Origin: Ignavibacteria bacterium
GTDB taxonomy: Bacteria > Bacteroidota > Ignavibacteria > Kapaibacteriales > UBA2268
Direction of reading: 5' to 3'
Assembly: GCA_012518115.1 (NCBI GenBank)
Contig: JAAYTD010000067.1
Coordinates: forward strand, 1 to 36,047
Length of the DNA: 36,047 nucleotides
Made by a program: the position numbers and the translations under genes. A model generated the notes under the pieces. That model did not search any database and was not told the origin of the DNA. It saw nothing but the letters and a program-made list of their open reading frames with translations. This document shows, one piece after another, positions 8,989 to 36,047 of the stretch. Positions within the stretch are counted from its first letter, which is position 1; every line of letters begins with the position of its first letter.

Positions 8989-10332
8989 CTACTCTACAGG
9001 TAATTCTATTTTATATGTTGTTCCCCTACCTATTTCTGGAAAAATGGAAAATTTTCCATTATGTTGCAGTAATATATGTTGTGATAAAAGAAACAAGAAG
9101 CGTGATTTGACTTTTTCTTCAGATAAATCAACAAGAGAGATGATATTGTTGGATATTTCAGGAGCTTCTAATCCTAATCCCGTATCTGTAATTAATATAG
9201 TAATAGTATTTTTTTCATCTGAATTATGAACTCCAATATTGATTTGTCCGCCCTCAGGCATAGAATTTGCCGAATATAAAATTACATTCGCTATAGCAAA
9301 TATAATTTGAGTTTTAAAGCATTTGATTTGATTCTTTTTCGTTTCAATCACTTTGGTTAATTTCACGCCATATCTATTTATTTGATATGCGATTATCTCC
9401 AAAACTTCATCTAAAATTTCATTAACAGAACAGCTAGTAAAATGTTGCTCTACATCGTTTCTAAACTCACTCATTTTTTTCTCAATTCCACTTATATACG
9501 CAAATTGTTCTGCTAAAATATCTATTCGTTTATTTATATCGCCTATTCCTTTCGCTATTAGTTCTAAATTAGTTTTTCCAATTTTCAAAGGTGCTTTAAT
9601 TTCTTTACTTAGCATTAGAATGATTTCACTAATAGCTAGTTGATTAGAAGCGCTAGCTATTTGATTACGAAGAAGATGCTGCTCCGTATTTAATCTTTCT
9701 ATCTCGTTTTGTTTTTTTAATGAATGAATTAAATAATATGCTTTTTCTATAAAATTATAGAGCTCTTTAATATTTTTCTCTTCTATTTCTACTTTTTCCA
9801 TAGCAGAATTTGCGAGAAAAATTGCAGATTTTTCATCGAAAAAAATGATAGGTATGATTAAAATACTTTTTATTGCTTCATTTTCTTGCGTTGTATTTGG
9901 TAGGATTTTAACTTCTTTAGTTTCAAAAGCCCATTCTATTAAACCGCGTTCTTCTAAATCTTTATAGAGCGCTTTTAAATTTTCGGAAGAATGAATTTCG
10001 TCCAAATTTTTGATATTTTGGTCAGCAATAATAAAAATATCTAAATCAACTACTAAATATTCTTTTGCCAGAAAAGCAAATACCGTATTAAATGTGTCAA
10101 AAACCGTTTTACAATTTGAAAATGTCGGCATCTCAACTTCAAGTTGATTTTCAAGCACTGGCTTAGCTATAGCTTCTTTGCTTTCTAAGTCCGCCTTTTT
10201 GTTCAACTTTTCTATCGTTTCATTTAATTCGTCTCGCAAAATATTCACAGATAGCTCCAAAGATCTTATATATTCATCTTGAGGAGTAAAATTTTGTTCA
10301 TCTTTTTTCTGCTTCACTGTTCTTTTTGCCAT
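8989..10332 (-). CDS. Degenerate soluble histidine-kinase-like protein lacking the phospho-accepting His
   Basis: 447 residues, no membrane segment. An N-terminal coiled coil (about 15-65) is followed by a GAF-like sensor region (about 70-205: DLDIFIIADQNI, ILIIPIIFFDEKSAIFLAN), a second coiled coil (205-235), a DHp-like helix pair and a C-terminal GHKL-type ATPase domain (about 300-447). The helix that should carry the H-box reads MLSKEIKAPL, so Lys243 replaces the His of the usual SHELKTPL. The N-box is ANVILYSANSMPEGG with Asn kept, the G1 box DTGLGLE is intact, and the G2 region (FLFLLSQHILLQHNGK) lacks the usual glycine pair. It may bind nucleotide but probably cannot autophosphorylate in the classical way. 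A scaffold or regulator role is inference. It is last of four tightly spaced genes, starting 15 bases after the lolA-like gene. Confidence 0.78.
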   Translation of the reverse strand: MAKRTVKQKKDEQNFTPQDEYIRSLELSVNILRDELNETIEKLNKKADLESKEAIAKPVLENQLEVEMPTFSNCKTVFDTFNTVFAFLAKEYLVVDLDIFIIADQNIKNLDEIHSSENLKALYKDLEERGLIEWAFETKEVKILPNTTQENEAIKSILIIPIIFFDEKSAIFLANSAMEKVEIEEKNIKELYNFIEKAYYLIHSLKKQNEIERLNTEQHLLRNQIASASNQLAISEIILMLSKEIKAPLKIGKTNLELIAKGIGDINKRIDILAEQFAYISGIEKKMSEFRNDVEQHFTSCSVNEILDEVLEIIAYQINRYGVKLTKVIETKKNQIKCFKTQIIFAIANVILYSANSMPEGGQINIGVHNSDEKNTITILITDTGLGLEAPEISNNIISLVDLSEEKVKSRFLFLLSQHILLQHNGKFSIFPEIGRGTTYKIELPVE

Positions 10333-10347
10333 TTTACATAAAAAAAT

Positions 10348-10980
10348 CTATAATCTATAATCTATTACCTCTACCTTTTCAGGAACTTTAAAGTTAAATG
10401 TACTGTTATCTAACTTCGGATTTACTTTAATCTTTTTAATTATCCAGCTTTGTGTTCCCATATCGCCAACTAATTCAAGTTCTTTAATGTCAGTAAAATC
10501 TGGAGTTAAAGATAAATTAACAGTATTTACTCCCGTATTTTGATTCTCACATCGCAAAGAAAGTACATAACTTTTTTTCTTGCTTGAAGAAAGTTCACTT
10601 TTAAATGAAGTAGGAATTAAATTTGGAAAAATTTCAAAGAAAAAATAATCTAAAGTAAATGAAGCTACACCTTCTTCAAAGTCAGAAATAACAACATTTT
10701 TATTAGTTATGCTATAGTTCCAAAGAGTTTTTCCGTCGCAAACAATTCTTCTGTTGCCTGACTTCAAGTTGAATTTATTACCTTTTTTCGCTTGCAAAAA
10801 ATAACATGCTGAAGTATGCTTTGCATCGCAAAAATTAATAGAAACCGCTGTACTATTAGCATATTTTTTCTTTATTTTATTAAACACTTCCGTTTTATCG
10901 TATTGTGTCCAAACTTTCTGTGTAGCAATCAAACAAAGCACTACAAAAATAAATATCTTTTTCATAATTTTAATTCTCAT
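10348..10980 (-). CDS. lolA: LolA-like periplasmic lipoprotein carrier
   Basis: 210 residues with a signal peptide (IMKKIFIFVVLCLIATQKVWTQ). The mature part shows the LolA pattern: an early segment on substrate induction (FNKIKKKYANSTAVSINF), then AKKGNKFNLKSGNRRIVCDGKTLWNYSITNKNVVISDF, which matches the family's KG.FR......I.DGk.lW.Y....kqV..s. LolA ferries lipoproteins released by the LolCDE ABC complex from the inner to the outer membrane. The true start may be the second Met (residue 6, position 10965), which gives a cleaner signal peptide. It lies only 3 bases after the thiamine pyrophosphokinase gene. LolD is encoded separately at 19454-20146. Confidence 0.78.
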   Translation of the reverse strand: MRIKIMKKIFIFVVLCLIATQKVWTQYDKTEVFNKIKKKYANSTAVSINFCDAKHTSACYFLQAKKGNKFNLKSGNRRIVCDGKTLWNYSITNKNVVISDFEEGVASFTLDYFFFEIFPNLIPTSFKSELSSSKKKSYVLSLRCENQNTGVNTVNLSLTPDFTDIKELELVGDMGTQSWIIKKIKVNPKLDNSTFNFKVPEKVEVIDYRL

Positions 10981-10983
10981 ATT

Positions 10984-11649
10984 TTATTTATAAATAGGCG
11001 ATAACGGCAAGCGCGCTTCTACAAAAACTGTAAGCGAACCGCTATGTAAATTTATTGTAATTTCATCGTTAGTCGTTAAATTTCTTGCACCCTCACGAGC
11101 TCCTAATTCAAGACTTTCTTTCAACAAGCTCCATTTCAAATTCTGCGTTGTCAATGTTGCTTTAGGCTGTGGAATTAAAGAAATTATCTCATCTTTTTTC
11201 AATCTCAACATAACATCTTCTCTCACCACAAAACCATATCTATTTTCTGTACATATACATAAATTAAGTTTAGAAGAATAGCGAATAAAAATGCTCCAAT
11301 TGTTCAAAGAATGTTCAAACTCGCCTCCGTCTATACCTAAGATCAAACAATTTCTATAACCTGCTTCCATAGCAAATTGCAAAGTTTTTTCAAAATCATT
11401 TGTTTCCTGTTCAGCAATATGCACTAATTTATCTTTAGGAAATTTGATATTGTCAGGATTTGCATAAAATGTATCTAAATCACCGATAATTTTCTCAGCT
11501 TCAACACCTATTTTCTCTAAATTAAAAACAGAGCCGTCAGCCGCAAAAATAGGAATATCTTGCAATTTTTCAAAAACTTTCGCTTTCGGTAAAATGCCCG
11601 CAAGACAAATTATACAATCAAATTTTCCACTAAATTCTATAGTTCTCAT
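10984..11649 (-). CDS. thiN: Thiamine pyrophosphokinase
   Basis: 221 residues. The enzyme transfers pyrophosphate from ATP to thiamine to make thiamine diphosphate. The family's substrate motifs appear in order: FAADGS (36-40), the metal and phosphate site IIGDLDTF (54-61), EQETNDFEKTL (80-90) and GIDGGEFEHSLNN (105-117), which corresponds to the usual G..GGR.DH...N with Glu-Phe-Glu-His in place of Arg-x-Asp-His. A C-terminal beta-sandwich thiamine-binding domain ends the protein (LTTNDEITINLHSGSLTVFVE). The ATG begins directly after the glycosyltransferase stop codon, and lolA follows 3 bases downstream, so the genes are very likely translated from one transcript. Confidence 0.88.
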   Translation of the reverse strand: MRTIEFSGKFDCIICLAGILPKAKVFEKLQDIPIFAADGSVFNLEKIGVEAEKIIGDLDTFYANPDNIKFPKDKLVHIAEQETNDFEKTLQFAMEAGYRNCLILGIDGGEFEHSLNNWSIFIRYSSKLNLCICTENRYGFVVREDVMLRLKKDEIISLIPQPKATLTTQNLKWSLLKESLELGAREGARNLTTNDEITINLHSGSLTVFVEARLPLSPIYK

Positions 11650-30600: not shown

Positions 30601-33600
30601 ATGGCTAAGAAAAAAACTAAAAAAAAGATAAGATTAGAAGACATTAGAAAATATCGCTGGTCAGCTCTTTTTACTTTTATTATGACCATTGTAATTGCTT
30701 TTCTATTGTATGTCTTATATATGTACGTGAGACATTATGACGAGGAAGCATTTGTTAACTCTAAGACAGATATAGTAAAAATGTTAAGCAATATTGTTGC
30801 ACCTCTTACAGAAGAACAAGCTGATCAATCTGAGTTTAACAAATTATTATATAACTATCTAGACACATATTCCAAACAAAATATTAATTCTACTGACGAT
30901 ATTATATCTATTTATATAAGAACAAACGATCAGTATGCATTTTCAGAACAATTATTTCATTACAGTAATCCGTCTTATCCTCTAAACTTACAATTATATA
31001 AAATAGATGAGAAAAATAAAGGTTTACAACGCGAAGACCATCTGTTTGCTTCAATTACTCCAATTTATGGTGCCTTGGGAAACGAAGTTGGGACTATTAC
31101 TGTTCTATTTTCGACAGATAGTATGGAGGAAAAAGCCTCTAGTTTTATTAATCTTGTTATGTTATTAGCTACCTTTGCCCTGTTACTCTTTATGTTAATT
31201 GTATTTTTGCTGCCTAAACTTATACTAAATCCTGTAAATAGTATTGTTAAGACTATGCAATTGGTACAAGCTGGAAATTATTCTGCTAGGATAGAGCTAG
31301 ATAAGAATGGTACAAACAGAATTAAAAGTGCATATGAATTCGATTTTGCAGTCGAAGTATTTAATGATATAGCGAGTGTGTTAGAAACAAAACATAGAGA
31401 ACTATCTTCTTTAAATAATAAATTTTACAATGACGTAAACCAACAAATGGAGTTGTTTTCCAAAGAAATTGCAAAAGCTAAAAAATCTGAAGAAAATATA
31501 AGTAAAGAGATACAAGCCATCAATAATATTATAGAATATGCTCCTTTTCCAATTATAGAATTAAGTTCTGATTTCATTATAATAAGAAACAATAATATGT
31601 TTTCAAAAATATTCGGTTACGAAAACAATGAATTAATAGGCAGAAACATTAGAACAATACTCTACGATTATAATACTCAAGAGCTACAAGAAATTTTTGA
31701 AAAAAGCATAAATTCTACAGAAGTTTATAACATAAAAAAAATAAAAGGTAGAAAAAAAACGGGTAAATTGATGGATCTTGAAATAAAATTAGTTTTTATT
31801 TCCAATGATATAAAAGGTAGAAACGGATTTATTTTAACAATAAATGACATTAGTGAAACTCTAAGTATGTCTAAAAAAATTAGAGAAAACGAGTCTAGAT
31901 ATCGCAATTTGATTGAAGGAACAGTAACCGGTTATATAATTATACAAGATAATTTTATAACGTTCGCAAACGATGCTACTCTTAGAATCTTAGGCTACCC
32001 AAGTTTTGAAGACCTATATGTAACTCCACTCGAAAATATAATAAATCCTGAAGACAGAGAAGCGTTTTTTAAAAAAACTAGCACTGAGGAAAATGAAGCG
32101 ACTAATTTAGAAATAGAAGTTACTTGTTTTGCAGGTGAAACGAAAACAATTGAAGGCATTCTAACTACTGTTACTATAGATAATATTCAAAGGAAGCAGC
32201 TAAGTTTTTATGACATTACGAAACGAAAAAGTACGGAACAAAAATTAATGAATATGAATGAGATTTTAGAACAACGTATTCTTGAACGTACTAAATCTCT
32301 TAATAATGCTATGCAATTACTCCGCTCTGAAATTGACAAGAAAGAAGAAATTGCAAGTTCTTTACAAATCAAATCTAATATATTAGATATAATACAAACT
32401 GTTTGTATTGTTCATGATCAAGATGGGAAATGCGTATATTTTAATAAATACTTAGAAACGCTTTTAGGTGATCCTAAAAATTATCACAAATCTATATTTG
32501 ACCCTAATACTAATCCTATAGAATTAGAAGGAATTGAATATGAAATCTTAAGCGATGAGATTTTCTATATTACACAAGAAAACATAGCTAAAGTTGCAAA
32601 AGGCGAAATACCGCTACCTAACGCAGACAAAGGCTATTGGATATTGAAAATTAGAAATAAATTTACCGACAATGAGACTTACTATTATCAAATGCAAGGC
32701 ATTGTAAAAGATGGAATGTTTATTCAAACGGGTATAGACATAACCAATATGGTTGTGACTAATGAAAATCTCAAAATAGCTAAGGAACAAATTGAATTTC
32801 AAGCCAATATTATTGATCAAATATCAGCTATATGTTTTCTTTTTAATGCTCATACAGGCGAATGTACTTATGCAACCCCTTATACTGCAAACTTACTTGG
32901 AACTACATCAAAAGAATTACTAGGTCAAGGCATTTGGAAATACTTGGATAATAATCCTGAAATTAAAAAAATACGTAATTTAATTAATTCGCCTGACTTA
33001 ACAACTGAAACAGATTTATTTAGCAATACAATTTTTTATATGCATCAAGCAGATAAGTATTTTAATTTATATATTGAGTTTCTTGAAAACAACAATATCA
33101 TTTGCTTCGGCTCAGATATTACAGAAAGAATACTGGCACAAAATGAAATTGAACAAAAAAACAAAACATTAGAACAACTCGCAAACGATTTAGAAGAAAA
33201 ATATAACATATTAAACAACTCCTTAAGTCTTTCTTTAGTATTTGATGAAACAGGTGATGTTGTATATTATAATCCTTACGTATTAGAAGCTTTTGCTCTT
33301 TCCGAACAGTATCGCCCGTTCTGGCCAAGTGAAATATATGAAATGTATGGAAAAATGTTTGAAATTATAACTGAAAATGACAAATTTAAATTTACAAAAG
33401 AAACTATGAGTAAGATTGTTAAGGGCGAAATCCCTATAGAAAAAGACAACTGGATAATAAAAGTTTGTCATGAAGGTACTAATTTTAAGCCTAAGTATTT
33501 TAAAACTCAAGGGGTTGTTCTTGATAATAAATTTATTCAAACAAGTATTGATGTTACTGATATTGTTCTTGCTAATGAAAAATTGAAAAAAATAACAGAA

Positions 33601-36047
33601 GAACTAAAACTCAAATCTCACATTCTAGATAATATACCAGTAACTTGTATTGTTGCCGATACAAATGGCGACTATATTTATCATAACCCTTATACTATTG
33701 AAGCTTTTGCTATTCCTGCCATAACTTCTACACCATCATCATATTTTGAAAATCAAGTGTTTGAAGATATAGACAAAAGATATGAAACTTTTCATGAACT
33801 TGGAGTTATTCCCCCTACAAAAGAAAATCTTGCTAAAATAGCAAAAGGGGAAATTAGTTTGATGACTTCTGAGGGTAAAATGAACTGGCTAATGAAAGTT
33901 CGTCATGAAGGTACTAATAATGAAACAAAATACTTTAAAACAGAAGGAGTTATAATAGACGGACTATTTATTCAAACGGGAATCGATATTACTTCCGAAA
34001 TCTTAACCAATGAAAAATTGCAAAAAACAACAGAAGAACTAAAACTTAAATCTCATATTCTAGATAATATACCAGTAACTTGTCTTGTTTCCGATATAAA
34101 TGGCGACTACATTTATTATTCCCCTTATTCTATTAAAGCTTTTGCTATTCCTGCCATAACTTCTACACCATCATCATATTTTGCAGACGAAATATTTAAA
34201 GATATAGACAAAAGATATGAAGTTATAGACGAACTTAACAATGTTATTCCTCCTACAAAAGAAAATCTTGCTAAAATAGCAAAAGGAGAAATTCAATTAC
34301 GTATTTCTGCTGCTGGTAAAATGAACTGGCTAACGAAAATTTGTCATGAAGGTACTAATTACGAACCAAAATACTTTAAGACAGAAGGAACTATAGTAGA
34401 TGAACTATTTATTCAAACAGGAATTGATATTACTCGCGAAATCTTAGCCAATGAAAAATTAGAAAAACTTACAGGACAATTACAACTACAATCTGACATA
34501 TTAGCCCAAATACCTGCAATTTGTATTGTAATGAATAGTAGAACAGGTGGTTTTATTTATACAAACTCCTACACTCTTTCTATTATAGATATCTCAAAAG
34601 AAGAATTAGAAGAATATAATATATTTGATGTTTCAAATAGTAGAAATTTATTAGAGCTATTTGTTGAAAATACAGGATTAGCAACTCAAACTAACGAAAC
34701 TATTACTAGAGAAAAATTAAAACAAAATGTTATATTGGAACATCCAATAACAAAACAATATTTTAGAATAAATAGTGACCTACTTCAAAACGGCGATATA
34801 ATTTCTGTTGGAATTGATATAACTGAACAAGTCTTAGCACAAAAAGAAATAAAAGACAAAAATACTGAGCTAGAAAACATGACACAAGATTTAATAGTAA
34901 AATCAAATATGTTAGACAGCTTAGGAAGTTTATGCTTAGTTTATGACAAAAATGGCGAATGTATATACTGTAATTCTTATACATTAGAAAGTTTTTCTAT
35001 AACTGATGACCAAAAATATTTACTCAATGATATTAATAATATTAATTTACACCATTCTGAAAATGTAAAATATGAAGTTGTGTCGAAAAGTGAACTTCGA
35101 TTTACACAAGAAAATATAAAAAAAGTTCTTAATAACGAAATAACTATAAAAACAATCGAACAAGAAAACTATATCTTAAAAATTAGTAACCATAAAATAA
35201 ATTATGACACTAACTATTTCAAATTACATTCTACAATAAAAGATAATCTGTTTATTCAGTCGGGAACAGATATTACTGACCTTGTGTTAAGCAATAACAA
35301 ATTAGAAGAGTTAACAAAACAATTAGAAGATGCTTTAATTGAAGAACAAGAACTTAATGAACTAAAAACTCGTTTCGTTTCTATGATATCACATGAATAC
35401 AGAACTCCGCTTACTATTATTCTTTCAAGTGTAGCAGTAATTCAACAAGCTATAGAAAATAACCGAGCTGATATGGCTACAAAATTTATAGAAAGAATTG
35501 AAAAAGCAGTTAAAACTATGTCTAACCTAATGGAAGATGTTCTAGCCTTTGGAAAAGCAGAAGCTACAGAAGTTACGAACATTGAGGAAATTAACTTAAC
35601 TACATTTATATCAGATATGATATTAAGTTTAGATTCAGTTTATAAACAATATACTTCTAAAGTAAAATTAGAAGTTATAGGTGAAATACCAATTATTAAA
35701 ACAAATGAAAAATTATTAACTCATATAATACAAAATTTACTTACAAACGCAATAAAATATACTACTAATAGCGAAGATGCTATAATTAAAATTGTTAAAG
35801 AAAATGAAAATATAAGAATAGATGTTATAGATAAAGGTATCGGCATTCCGGAAGAAGATCTAAAACATTTATTCCAAGACTTTTATCGCGCAACTAATGT
35901 CGGAAATATCCAAGGCACAGGACTTGGAATGCGTATCGTAAAAGATAGCGTAAATAAACTTGGGGGTAAAATTACTGTAGAAAGTAAAGTAAATGTTGGT
36001 TCAACGTTTACTGTGGTTTTACCAATTAACACTCCCCCCCCCCCGCA
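30601..36047 (+). CDS. Giant membrane histidine kinase with nine PAS-like modules (3' partial)
   Basis: At least 1815 residues, with no stop between ATG 30601 and the window edge. Order: TM1 (about 20-43), a periplasmic sensor loop (45-180), TM2 (182-206), HAMP (about 205-265), coiled coil, PAS A (307-421), PAS B (432-544), coiled coil (545-595), then seven tandem modules of 130-147 residues (starting near 591, 734, 867, 1005, 1150, 1297 and 1434). Most modules show a PAS-like start (ICIV.D..G..IY.NPYT), a middle KENLAKIAKGEI, an NW..K..HEGTN turn and an end FIQTGIDIT; the second and sixth are the most diverged. A DHp domain has His1598 in MISHEYRTPL. The ATPase domain has N-box NLLTNAIKYT, G1 DKGIGIP and G2 GTGLGMRIVKDSV, so it looks active. 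No receiver domain is seen before the edge. Modules 4 and 5 are near copies. The last residues after GSTFTVVLPIN are a Pro run from an 11-C tract, probably not real. Confidence 0.9.
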   Translation, partial: MAKKKTKKKIRLEDIRKYRWSALFTFIMTIVIAFLLYVLYMYVRHYDEEAFVNSKTDIVKMLSNIVAPLTEEQADQSEFNKLLYNYLDTYSKQNINSTDDIISIYIRTNDQYAFSEQLFHYSNPSYPLNLQLYKIDEKNKGLQREDHLFASITPIYGALGNEVGTITVLFSTDSMEEKASSFINLVMLLATFALLLFMLIVFLLPKLILNPVNSIVKTMQLVQAGNYSARIELDKNGTNRIKSAYEFDFAVEVFNDIASVLETKHRELSSLNNKFYNDVNQQMELFSKEIAKAKKSEENISKEIQAINNIIEYAPFPIIELSSDFIIIRNNNMFSKIFGYENNELIGRNIRTILYDYNTQELQEIFEKSINSTEVYNIKKIKGRKKTGKLMDLEIKLVFISNDIKGRNGFILTINDISETLSMSKKIRENESRYRNLIEGTVTGYIIIQDNFITFANDATLRILGYPSFEDLYVTPLENIINPEDREAFFKKTSTEENEATNLEIEVTCFAGETKTIEGILTTVTIDNIQRKQLSFYDITKRKSTEQKLMNMNEILEQRILERTKSLNNAMQLLRSEIDKKEEIASSLQIKSNILDIIQTVCIVHDQDGKCVYFNKYLETLLGDPKNYHKSIFDPNTNPIELEGIEYEILSDEIFYITQENIAKVAKGEIPLPNADKGYWILKIRNKFTDNETYYYQMQGIVKDGMFIQTGIDITNMVVTNENLKIAKEQIEFQANIIDQISAICFLFNAHTGECTYATPYTANLLGTTSKELLGQGIWKYLDNNPEIKKIRNLINSPDLTTETDLFSNTIFYMHQADKYFNLYIEFLENNNIICFGSDITERILAQNEIEQKNKTLEQLANDLEEKYNILNNSLSLSLVFDETGDVVYYNPYVLEAFALSEQYRPFWPSEIYEMYGKMFEIITENDKFKFTKETMSKIVKGEIPIEKDNWIIKVCHEGTNFKPKYFKTQGVVLDNKFIQTSIDVTDIVLANEKLKKITEELKLKSHILDNIPVTCIVADTNGDYIYHNPYTIEAFAIPAITSTPSSYFENQVFEDIDKRYETFHELGVIPPTKENLAKIAKGEISLMTSEGKMNWLMKVRHEGTNNETKYFKTEGVIIDGLFIQTGIDITSEILTNEKLQKTTEELKLKSHILDNIPVTCLVSDINGDYIYYSPYSIKAFAIPAITSTPSSYFADEIFKDIDKRYEVIDELNNVIPPTKENLAKIAKGEIQLRISAAGKMNWLTKICHEGTNYEPKYFKTEGTIVDELFIQTGIDITREILANEKLEKLTGQLQLQSDILAQIPAICIVMNSRTGGFIYTNSYTLSIIDISKEELEEYNIFDVSNSRNLLELFVENTGLATQTNETITREKLKQNVILEHPITKQYFRINSDLLQNGDIISVGIDITEQVLAQKEIKDKNTELENMTQDLIVKSNMLDSLGSLCLVYDKNGECIYCNSYTLESFSITDDQKYLLNDINNINLHHSENVKYEVVSKSELRFTQENIKKVLNNEITIKTIEQENYILKISNHKINYDTNYFKLHSTIKDNLFIQSGTDITDLVLSNNKLEELTKQLEDALIEEQELNELKTRFVSMISHEYRTPLTIILSSVAVIQQAIENNRADMATKFIERIEKAVKTMSNLMEDVLAFGKAEATEVTNIEEINLTTFISDMILSLDSVYKQYTSKVKLEVIGEIPIIKTNEKLLTHIIQNLLTNAIKYTTNSEDAIIKIVKENENIRIDVIDKGIGIPEEDLKHLFQDFYRATNVGNIQGTGLGMRIVKDSVNKLGGKITVESKVNVGSTFTVVLPINTPPPP
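32371..35331 (+). repeat. Seven tandem PAS-like modules within the giant kinase
   Basis: Modules begin near 32371, 32800, 33199, 33613, 34048, 34489 and 34900. Modules 4 and 5 are 435 bases apart and share a 48-base identical block (33701-33748 and 34136-34183) and a 35-base identical block (33814-33848 and 34252-34286). A one-codon insertion lies between the two blocks in module 5. Module boundaries fall at a recurring ILxNxKL coiled segment and a KS.IL or QS.IL start. Confidence 0.85.

Follow-up and report, generated by a model that had tools for sequence, protein, structure and literature searches.

A histidine-kinase homolog without its phospho-acceptor

The window (the whole stretch of DNA that was analysed, 36,047 nucleotides) carries on its reverse strand an intact open reading frame for a 447-residue homolog of histidine kinases, preceded by a lolA-like and a thiN-like gene. 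The protein can be divided into a predicted N-terminal coiled coil, a GAF-like region and a DHp-like region, followed by the positions of the ATP-site motifs. The features are as follows.

8989..10332, reverse strand: His-less histidine-kinase homolog, a probable pseudokinase; intact ORF, 447 aa, HATPase_c match at 1.3e-6, full-length relatives, ZraS alignment
10135..10290, reverse strand: predicted N-terminal coiled-coil segment, residues 15-66, with conserved Y21, L25, E26, L32 and E35
9697..10134, reverse strand: GAF-like region, residues 67-212, with conserved E128-x-G130 and P161; GAF_2/GAF_3 in relatives
9433..9696, reverse strand: DHp-like region, residues 213-300, with the hairpin motif GIGD-x2-KR (262-269); from ortholog and ZraS alignments
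9586..9615, reverse strand: degenerate H-box MLSKEIKAPL, residues 240-249, read from the sequence
9604..9606, reverse strand: Lys243 codon at the phospho-acceptor position, from the sequence and the ortholog alignment column
9274..9276, reverse strand: Tyr353, replacing the second N-box Asn; from ortholog and ZraS alignments
9172..9186, reverse strand: G1 box DTGLG, residues 383-387, retained; from ortholog and ZraS alignments
9091..9114, reverse strand: G2/ATP-lid position, residues 407-414, motif lost; sister copies mostly have GKGTGLGL
10348..10980, reverse strand: lolA-like gene immediately upstream of the kinase homolog (LolA, 4.3e-9), an unusual position for the latter
10984..11649, reverse strand: thiN-like thiamine diphosphokinase gene, next upstream (TPK_catalytic, 1.6e-10; thi_PPkinase, 92.1 bits vs. 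a cut-off of 76.4)

In a Pfam scan of the window protein, HATPase_c is above the cut-off and neither HisKA nor GAF is matched; among 23 aligned relatives, HisKA is found in 16, GAF_2 in nine and GAF_3 in nine. The preliminary description had read MLSKEIKAPL as an H-box with Lys243 in place of the acceptor His, and this is confirmed by the intact reading frame and by a phmmer alignment with ZraS (9jfj; E 8.5e-6) over residues 218-446, which puts Lys243 on the ZraS His. The same alignment places DTGLG on DSGKG and Tyr353 on the second N-box Asn (the NARDA position), which we take to be the metal-binding Asn, and the G2 lid motif is missing from it. The earlier statement that Asn and the G1 box remain therefore holds for N349, the first N-box Asn, and for DTGLG, but not for the second Asn, while the G2 box is degenerate just as had been described. 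Measured against a HisKA kinase, the protein has the G1 pattern D-x-G-x-G and DHp-CA homology, and lacks the acceptor His, the second N-box Asn and the G2 lid. The residues after the acceptor site are E244-I-K-A247, which puts Ala at H+4. As a control, the eight HisKA domains above cut-off elsewhere in the same genome (ten matches listed) all have the His. A structure prediction of the window protein from its single sequence gave a mean pLDDT of 36 and is unusable; a helix over residues 17-46 of the N-terminal segment is seen only in a very low-confidence model.

A second kinase-like gene lies in the same window on the forward strand, where a very long ORF (30601..36047, 1815 aa) runs to the contig end. 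It has an intact HisKA H-box, ISHEYRTPL, with the match at 35365..35565, and apparently encodes a large multi-domain sensor kinase.

Loss of the acceptor histidine across the family

Our first search covered 60 relatives, 55 of which had some kinase match, including full-length ones that share the N-terminal half. A profile search covered 54 genomes of the same family, and an order-wide search with one sister protein as query (E 1e-50) covered 123 genomes, mostly drafts as throughout; four very divergent copies, from genus g24, were recognised by gene order only. The ortholog set has 49 members: the own family contributes 32, spread over 19 genera, and six other families of the order contribute 17. 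Three of the 49 are incomplete (G023, cut before a masked run; G013, truncated by its contig; G024, at a contig end). The nearest relative of the window protein is 40% identical to it, and 22 of the 54 own-family genomes, the congener G001 among them, yielded no copy of the gene. Among the matches listed, no family genome has an additional copy that both bears the His and shares this N-terminal half, and the other family kinase matches cover DHp-CA only.

None of the 32 own-family copies has His at the acceptor site, as opposed to 17/17 copies from the six other families. The own-family residues at site 243 are Lys (10), Glu (5), Asn (4), Arg (4), Gln (3), Asp (3), Ser (2) and Trp (1), and across the 19 family genera this site ranks 288th of 447 in conservation, not above the average. 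The preliminary description had left it to the orthologs whether Lys is conserved here; since it is not, Lys has no special role and is not under selection as such, and Lys as a functional replacement for His was rejected in view of the eight residue types found. The second N-box Asn (Asn353) is present in 13/32 own-family vs. 17/17 sister copies, and the G2 pattern in 0/32 vs. 17/17, with two of the 32 having no letters there and several retaining the GLGL half. D383 of the G1 box is kept in 24/32. All of N353, D383, G385 and G387 are kept in 12/32 copies, so that the ATP site has decayed to different degrees and some own-family proteins may, judging from these residues, still bind ATP.

The idea that a different His of the DHp helix has become the acceptor, which had also been raised, finds no candidate among the family copies: the DHp region has no alternative conserved His, with H255 in 3/19 family genera, and the one column where His has a majority among the family genera (H424, 13/19) is in the CA domain. 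On these grounds an alternative His acceptor was rejected. In the ranking over the 19 family genera (447 sites), R269 is 3rd, G264 20th, E244 34th and the H+4 site 381st, and E128, R269 and G437 are invariant where filled. Thirty-six positions are conserved in both groups, and the only one to change its residue is site 255 (H+12; N255 in the window protein), which is His in 10/11 sister genera and Asn in 14/19 family genera. We take H+12 to fall within the segment to which response regulators dock, in which case this face would have been altered, not abandoned.

The 11 His-bearing sister copies form a clade with support 100/100 in a 30-sequence tree, and a tree of FlhF, FlhG and FliA splits 44 own-family rows from four sister rows with an SH-aLRT of 100; because of these two splits, the simplest history is that the His was lost once, in the ancestor of the family. 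His-bearing orthologs, should they exist, had been expected to mean a strain-specific loss. They do exist, but outside the family only, and the loss is therefore old and family-wide. A strain-specific loss or sequencing error was rejected, as 32/32 family copies are without the His and the other eight HisKA His residues are intact.

Gene neighbourhood and co-occurrence with flagellar genes

The lolA/thiN setting noted at the outset is present in the window but is not the usual one, as the neighbours of most family copies are flagellar regulators and a membrane-protein gene. The common cluster reads flhF, flhG/MinD-like, small membrane protein, fliA/whiG-type sigma, HDOD, kinase homolog and a membrane protein of ~500 aa, after which it continues with a type IX secretion tail protein and then a PorV-like protein. 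The names were assigned from the G015 copies, of which the upstream neighbour matches HDOD (PF08668) at 8.4e-61 and the ~500-aa membrane protein has no Pfam match. Of the gene's 32 copies in the family, 21 directly follow HDOD, 22 have fliA ≤2.5 kb upstream and 28 directly precede the gene of the ~500-aa membrane protein; the four without it there are those of the window genome, G029, G006 and G024, of which that of G024 is at a contig end. At L083, L091, L092, L093 and L203 the HDOD and kinase genes overlap, the shared stretch ranging from a few bases to tens of bases. At ten sister loci, the membrane protein is downstream in nine and HDOD upstream in four (L094, L095, L097 and L102); the sister locus L096 begins at the kinase gene. 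The downstream membrane protein is thus a steadier neighbour than HDOD, and in g4, g12 and g21 it remains where kinase homolog and HDOD are both missing. No response regulator adjoins the window gene, and there is none among the conserved cluster genes.

The window genome has FlhA, FlhF, FlhG, FliA and HDOD genes, with the kinase homolog away from the cluster. Its flhF-flhG-X-fliA genes are at the end of contig C46, and the HDOD gene, followed by what is presumably a TypA-like GTPase gene, is at the end of contig C70; because both are at contig ends, fliA and HDOD may still be neighbours. In the nearest relative, G029, three different contigs carry the kinase homolog, HDOD and fliA, in other surroundings. 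Between flhG and fliA, the window genome encodes a membrane protein of 520 aa (L204, 782..2344, reverse strand), vs. roughly 125-295 aa at the other loci.

FlhA was found in 49/54 family genomes (the negatives being G001, G007, G061, G025 and G026), and the kinase homolog is present in 32/49 FlhA-positive and 0/5 FlhA-negative ones (Fisher p 0.008, ignoring relatedness). Outside the family, FlhA is in 16/17 carriers vs. 13/52 genomes without a match at 1e-50 (p 4.6e-7, again ignoring relatedness). Overall, 48/49 carriers have FlhA; the exception, G043 of family f9, has a His-bearing ortholog but, in contrast to G114 and G115 of the same genus, no match to FlhA. Because the kinase homolog was not found in 17/49 flagellated family genomes, it seems dispensable for flagella. 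In G001, a 1.8-Mb genome of the window genus, FlhA, FliA, HDOD and kinase homolog were all not found, which is consistent with a recent loss of flagella.

The HDOD ortholog is well delimited, with 31 matches at E 2.5e-68 or better and the next at 3e-41. In the 49 flagellated family genomes, kinase homolog and HDOD are both present in 29 and neither was found in 15, with three genomes having the kinase homolog only (G003, G005 and G013) and two HDOD only (G060 and G066; p 5.9e-8, ignoring relatedness). The HDOD of G003 is cut by a contig end, the G013 locus ends inside the kinase gene and the G066 genome is 78%-complete, leaving G005 and G060 to break a tight pairing. In 11 of the 15 genomes with neither gene, the fliA region was inspected (G011, G031, G033 and G076 excepted), and neither gene is beside fliA there. 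On the tree, the co-absences (g8, g4+g19, g12+g21) represent two to three events, all with FlhA retained.

RpoN is present in 53/54 family genomes, and a PF00158 search of 10 genomes, from which 28 loci were examined, showed three NtrC-like groups that recur. One of the groups, an orphan NtrC-type regulator (REC-AAA-Fis HTH) that recurs across the order, has no kinase within its short flanks and is represented in the window genome by L261 (G000, contig C65), which appears, by eye, to keep the receiver Asp. L261 is no more than a possible partner of the window protein.

Purifying selection in relatives

Three g20 pairs have a dN/dS (Nei-Gojobori) of 0.07-0.08 for the kinase homolog, the g25 pair has 0.06 and three g24 pairs have 0.03; these ratios are approximate because dS is at least 0.74 in all family pairs. 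The range of 0.03-0.08 over these seven close congeneric pairs from three genera is similar to that of neighbouring genes, as in the g25 and g24 pairs the values for flhF, flhG, fliA and hdod are 0.02-0.07. A g14 pair gives 0.11, two distant g18 pairs 0.19 and 0.27, and a His-bearing sister pair (g30) 0.05. These values apply to relatives, the window copy itself being without a close enough relative. The low congeneric ratios argue for a maintained pseudokinase rather than a decaying gene, and a pseudogene is disfavoured for the relatives.

The most degenerate copies are those of genus g24 (L199-L202), which are without the His, N353 and the HE motif and, in the three with letters there, without G1. 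All of them lie directly after HDOD, and the dN/dS of 0.03 is the lowest measured for the kinase homolog.

A probable maintained pseudo-histidine kinase

The family combines a histidine-kinase fold lacking the phospho-acceptor with conservation as a gene (selection being seen in relatives), which is one trait of pseudo-histidine kinases of the DivL kind. The suggestion of a pseudokinase in the preliminary description is supported: the protein has lost acceptor, second N-box Asn and lid, the DHp region offers no other conserved His, and relatives are under purifying selection. In our view the protein is probably a maintained pseudo-histidine kinase, acting as a DivL-like scaffold or allosteric sensor without phosphotransfer and derived from an active kinase. 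We infer its mechanism, including the absence of phosphotransfer, from sequence. Its origin is a sensor kinase with GAF-DHp-CA architecture and of AtoS/ZraS-like (HisKA) type, which still looks active in the sister families. The comparison of the two groups shows that this bacterial family lost the acceptor His and the ATP lid, most simply in its ancestor, and the protein was kept in relatives by the purifying selection seen in close pairs of three genera. The GAF region would sense, and the dimeric DHp/CA body may dock a partner protein, for which the upstream HDOD protein (often co-absent), the downstream membrane protein, a response regulator and another kinase are candidates. The output would affect flagellar gene control or placement (flhF/flhG/fliA). 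With RpoN and an orphan NtrC-type regulator present, DivL-like sensing of a regulator is also conceivable.

That the protein instead forms hetero-dimers with one of the cell's His-bearing kinases and thereby changes the activity of that kinase, the flagellar linkage being incidental, we consider rather unlikely. There are precedents, as in excerpts of the respective reports RocA interacts with CovS (PMC7028121) and ChrS and HrrS form heterodimers by two-hybrid (PMC9491836), and both the eight intact HisKA domains of the window's own genome and the varying degree of CA preservation fit in; however, the family matches listed contain no second His-bearing copy with the same N-terminal half, and the co-absence with HDOD suggests a partner that is not a kinase. 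A protein that has lost kinase activity and dephosphorylates a response regulator via the E/DxxT/N motif could explain why E244 is kept in 21/32 family copies, and the orphan regulator L261, with its receiver Asp apparently kept, would be at hand. This is very unlikely, because the H+4 residue is Asn or Thr in 7/32 copies (Ser in five more, Ala in the window protein) and the His itself is implicated in the reaction, HK853 H260A having diminished phosphatase activity according to an excerpt of PMC5727384.

Relaxed selection after loss of function, with the gene heading for deletion, would agree with its absence from 22/54 family genomes (G001 and several genera among them), its strong divergence and its position off the usual cluster in the window genome and G029. 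The intact reading frames and the low dN/dS of the close pairs, that of the most degenerate genus, g24, included, make such decay most improbable. It is hardly credible that the protein is still a kinase with a new phospho-acceptor such as Lys243 or another His: the G1 box is retained and Lys is the residue in 10/32 copies, but eight different residues occupy the site, no other DHp His is conserved and the window protein has neither Asn353 nor the lid.

Returning to the maintained pseudo-histidine kinase, a more specific version is a family-wide rewiring, in which a flagellar-cluster kinase has become a phosphate-free sensor that acts via HDOD or the downstream membrane protein on control at the level of FlhF/FlhG/FliA; this version is tentative, and we would not expect all of it to hold. 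If it were true, the change from enzyme to scaffold could be traced stepwise among living lineages, with the sister families retaining all catalytic motifs.

Relation to known systems

Pseudo-histidine kinases are already known (DivL, RocA and ChrS), and to our knowledge few bacterial ones have been characterised. In the family described here, the His-less form is fixed in 32/32 sampled copies and fully motif-bearing orthologs exist in six sister families; together with ATP sites that are kept, partly lost or fully lost, this makes the order and consequences of the loss of kinase chemistry directly testable. It also points to the kinase-HDOD neighbourhood at a flagellar locus.

Like the window protein, DivL of Caulobacter is a HisKA-type DHp-CA protein without the phospho-acceptor His (Tyr550 in DivL), and in an excerpt of PMC4211667 it has neither kinase nor phosphatase activity in vitro. 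The sensor domains of DivL, however, are PAS domains and its action is on CckA/DivK in the cell cycle, whereas our protein has a GAF-like region, relatives beside flagellar genes and eight different residues at the acceptor site across one family. In a profile search DivL (4q20) matches only distantly (3.3e-16), and orthology is not supported. RocA of group A Streptococcus is likewise kinase-like and works without phosphorylation of its own via a true kinase (PMC7028121, in the part available), but it keeps a dispensable His (H246), is a membrane protein and belongs to another organism and pathway. ChrS is, in the excerpt of PMC9491836, a laboratory-evolved pseudo-histidine-kinase variant. The common upstream neighbour shares its HDOD domain with the motility proteins GsmR, Cj0248 and SadB; HDOD mutants alter motility in several bacteria according to an excerpt of PMC11004494, and the portions of that literature at hand describe no pseudokinase pairing. 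Among the open-licence papers listed by our searches (titles and abstract starts), we recognised nothing on this kinase family or on the flhF-flhG-HDOD-kinase cluster, and found no paper with flhF, flhG and HDOD together.

The closest named kinases are AtoS and ZraS, which are the best named matches of the single sister copy scanned (L019, from G044; AtoS 4.9e-60, ZraS 1.3e-47). Both are active kinases paired with NtrC-type regulators, in contrast to the window protein, which is without the His, N353 and G2 and matches AtoS at 5.1e-12; the matches are far below the NCBIfam cut-offs.
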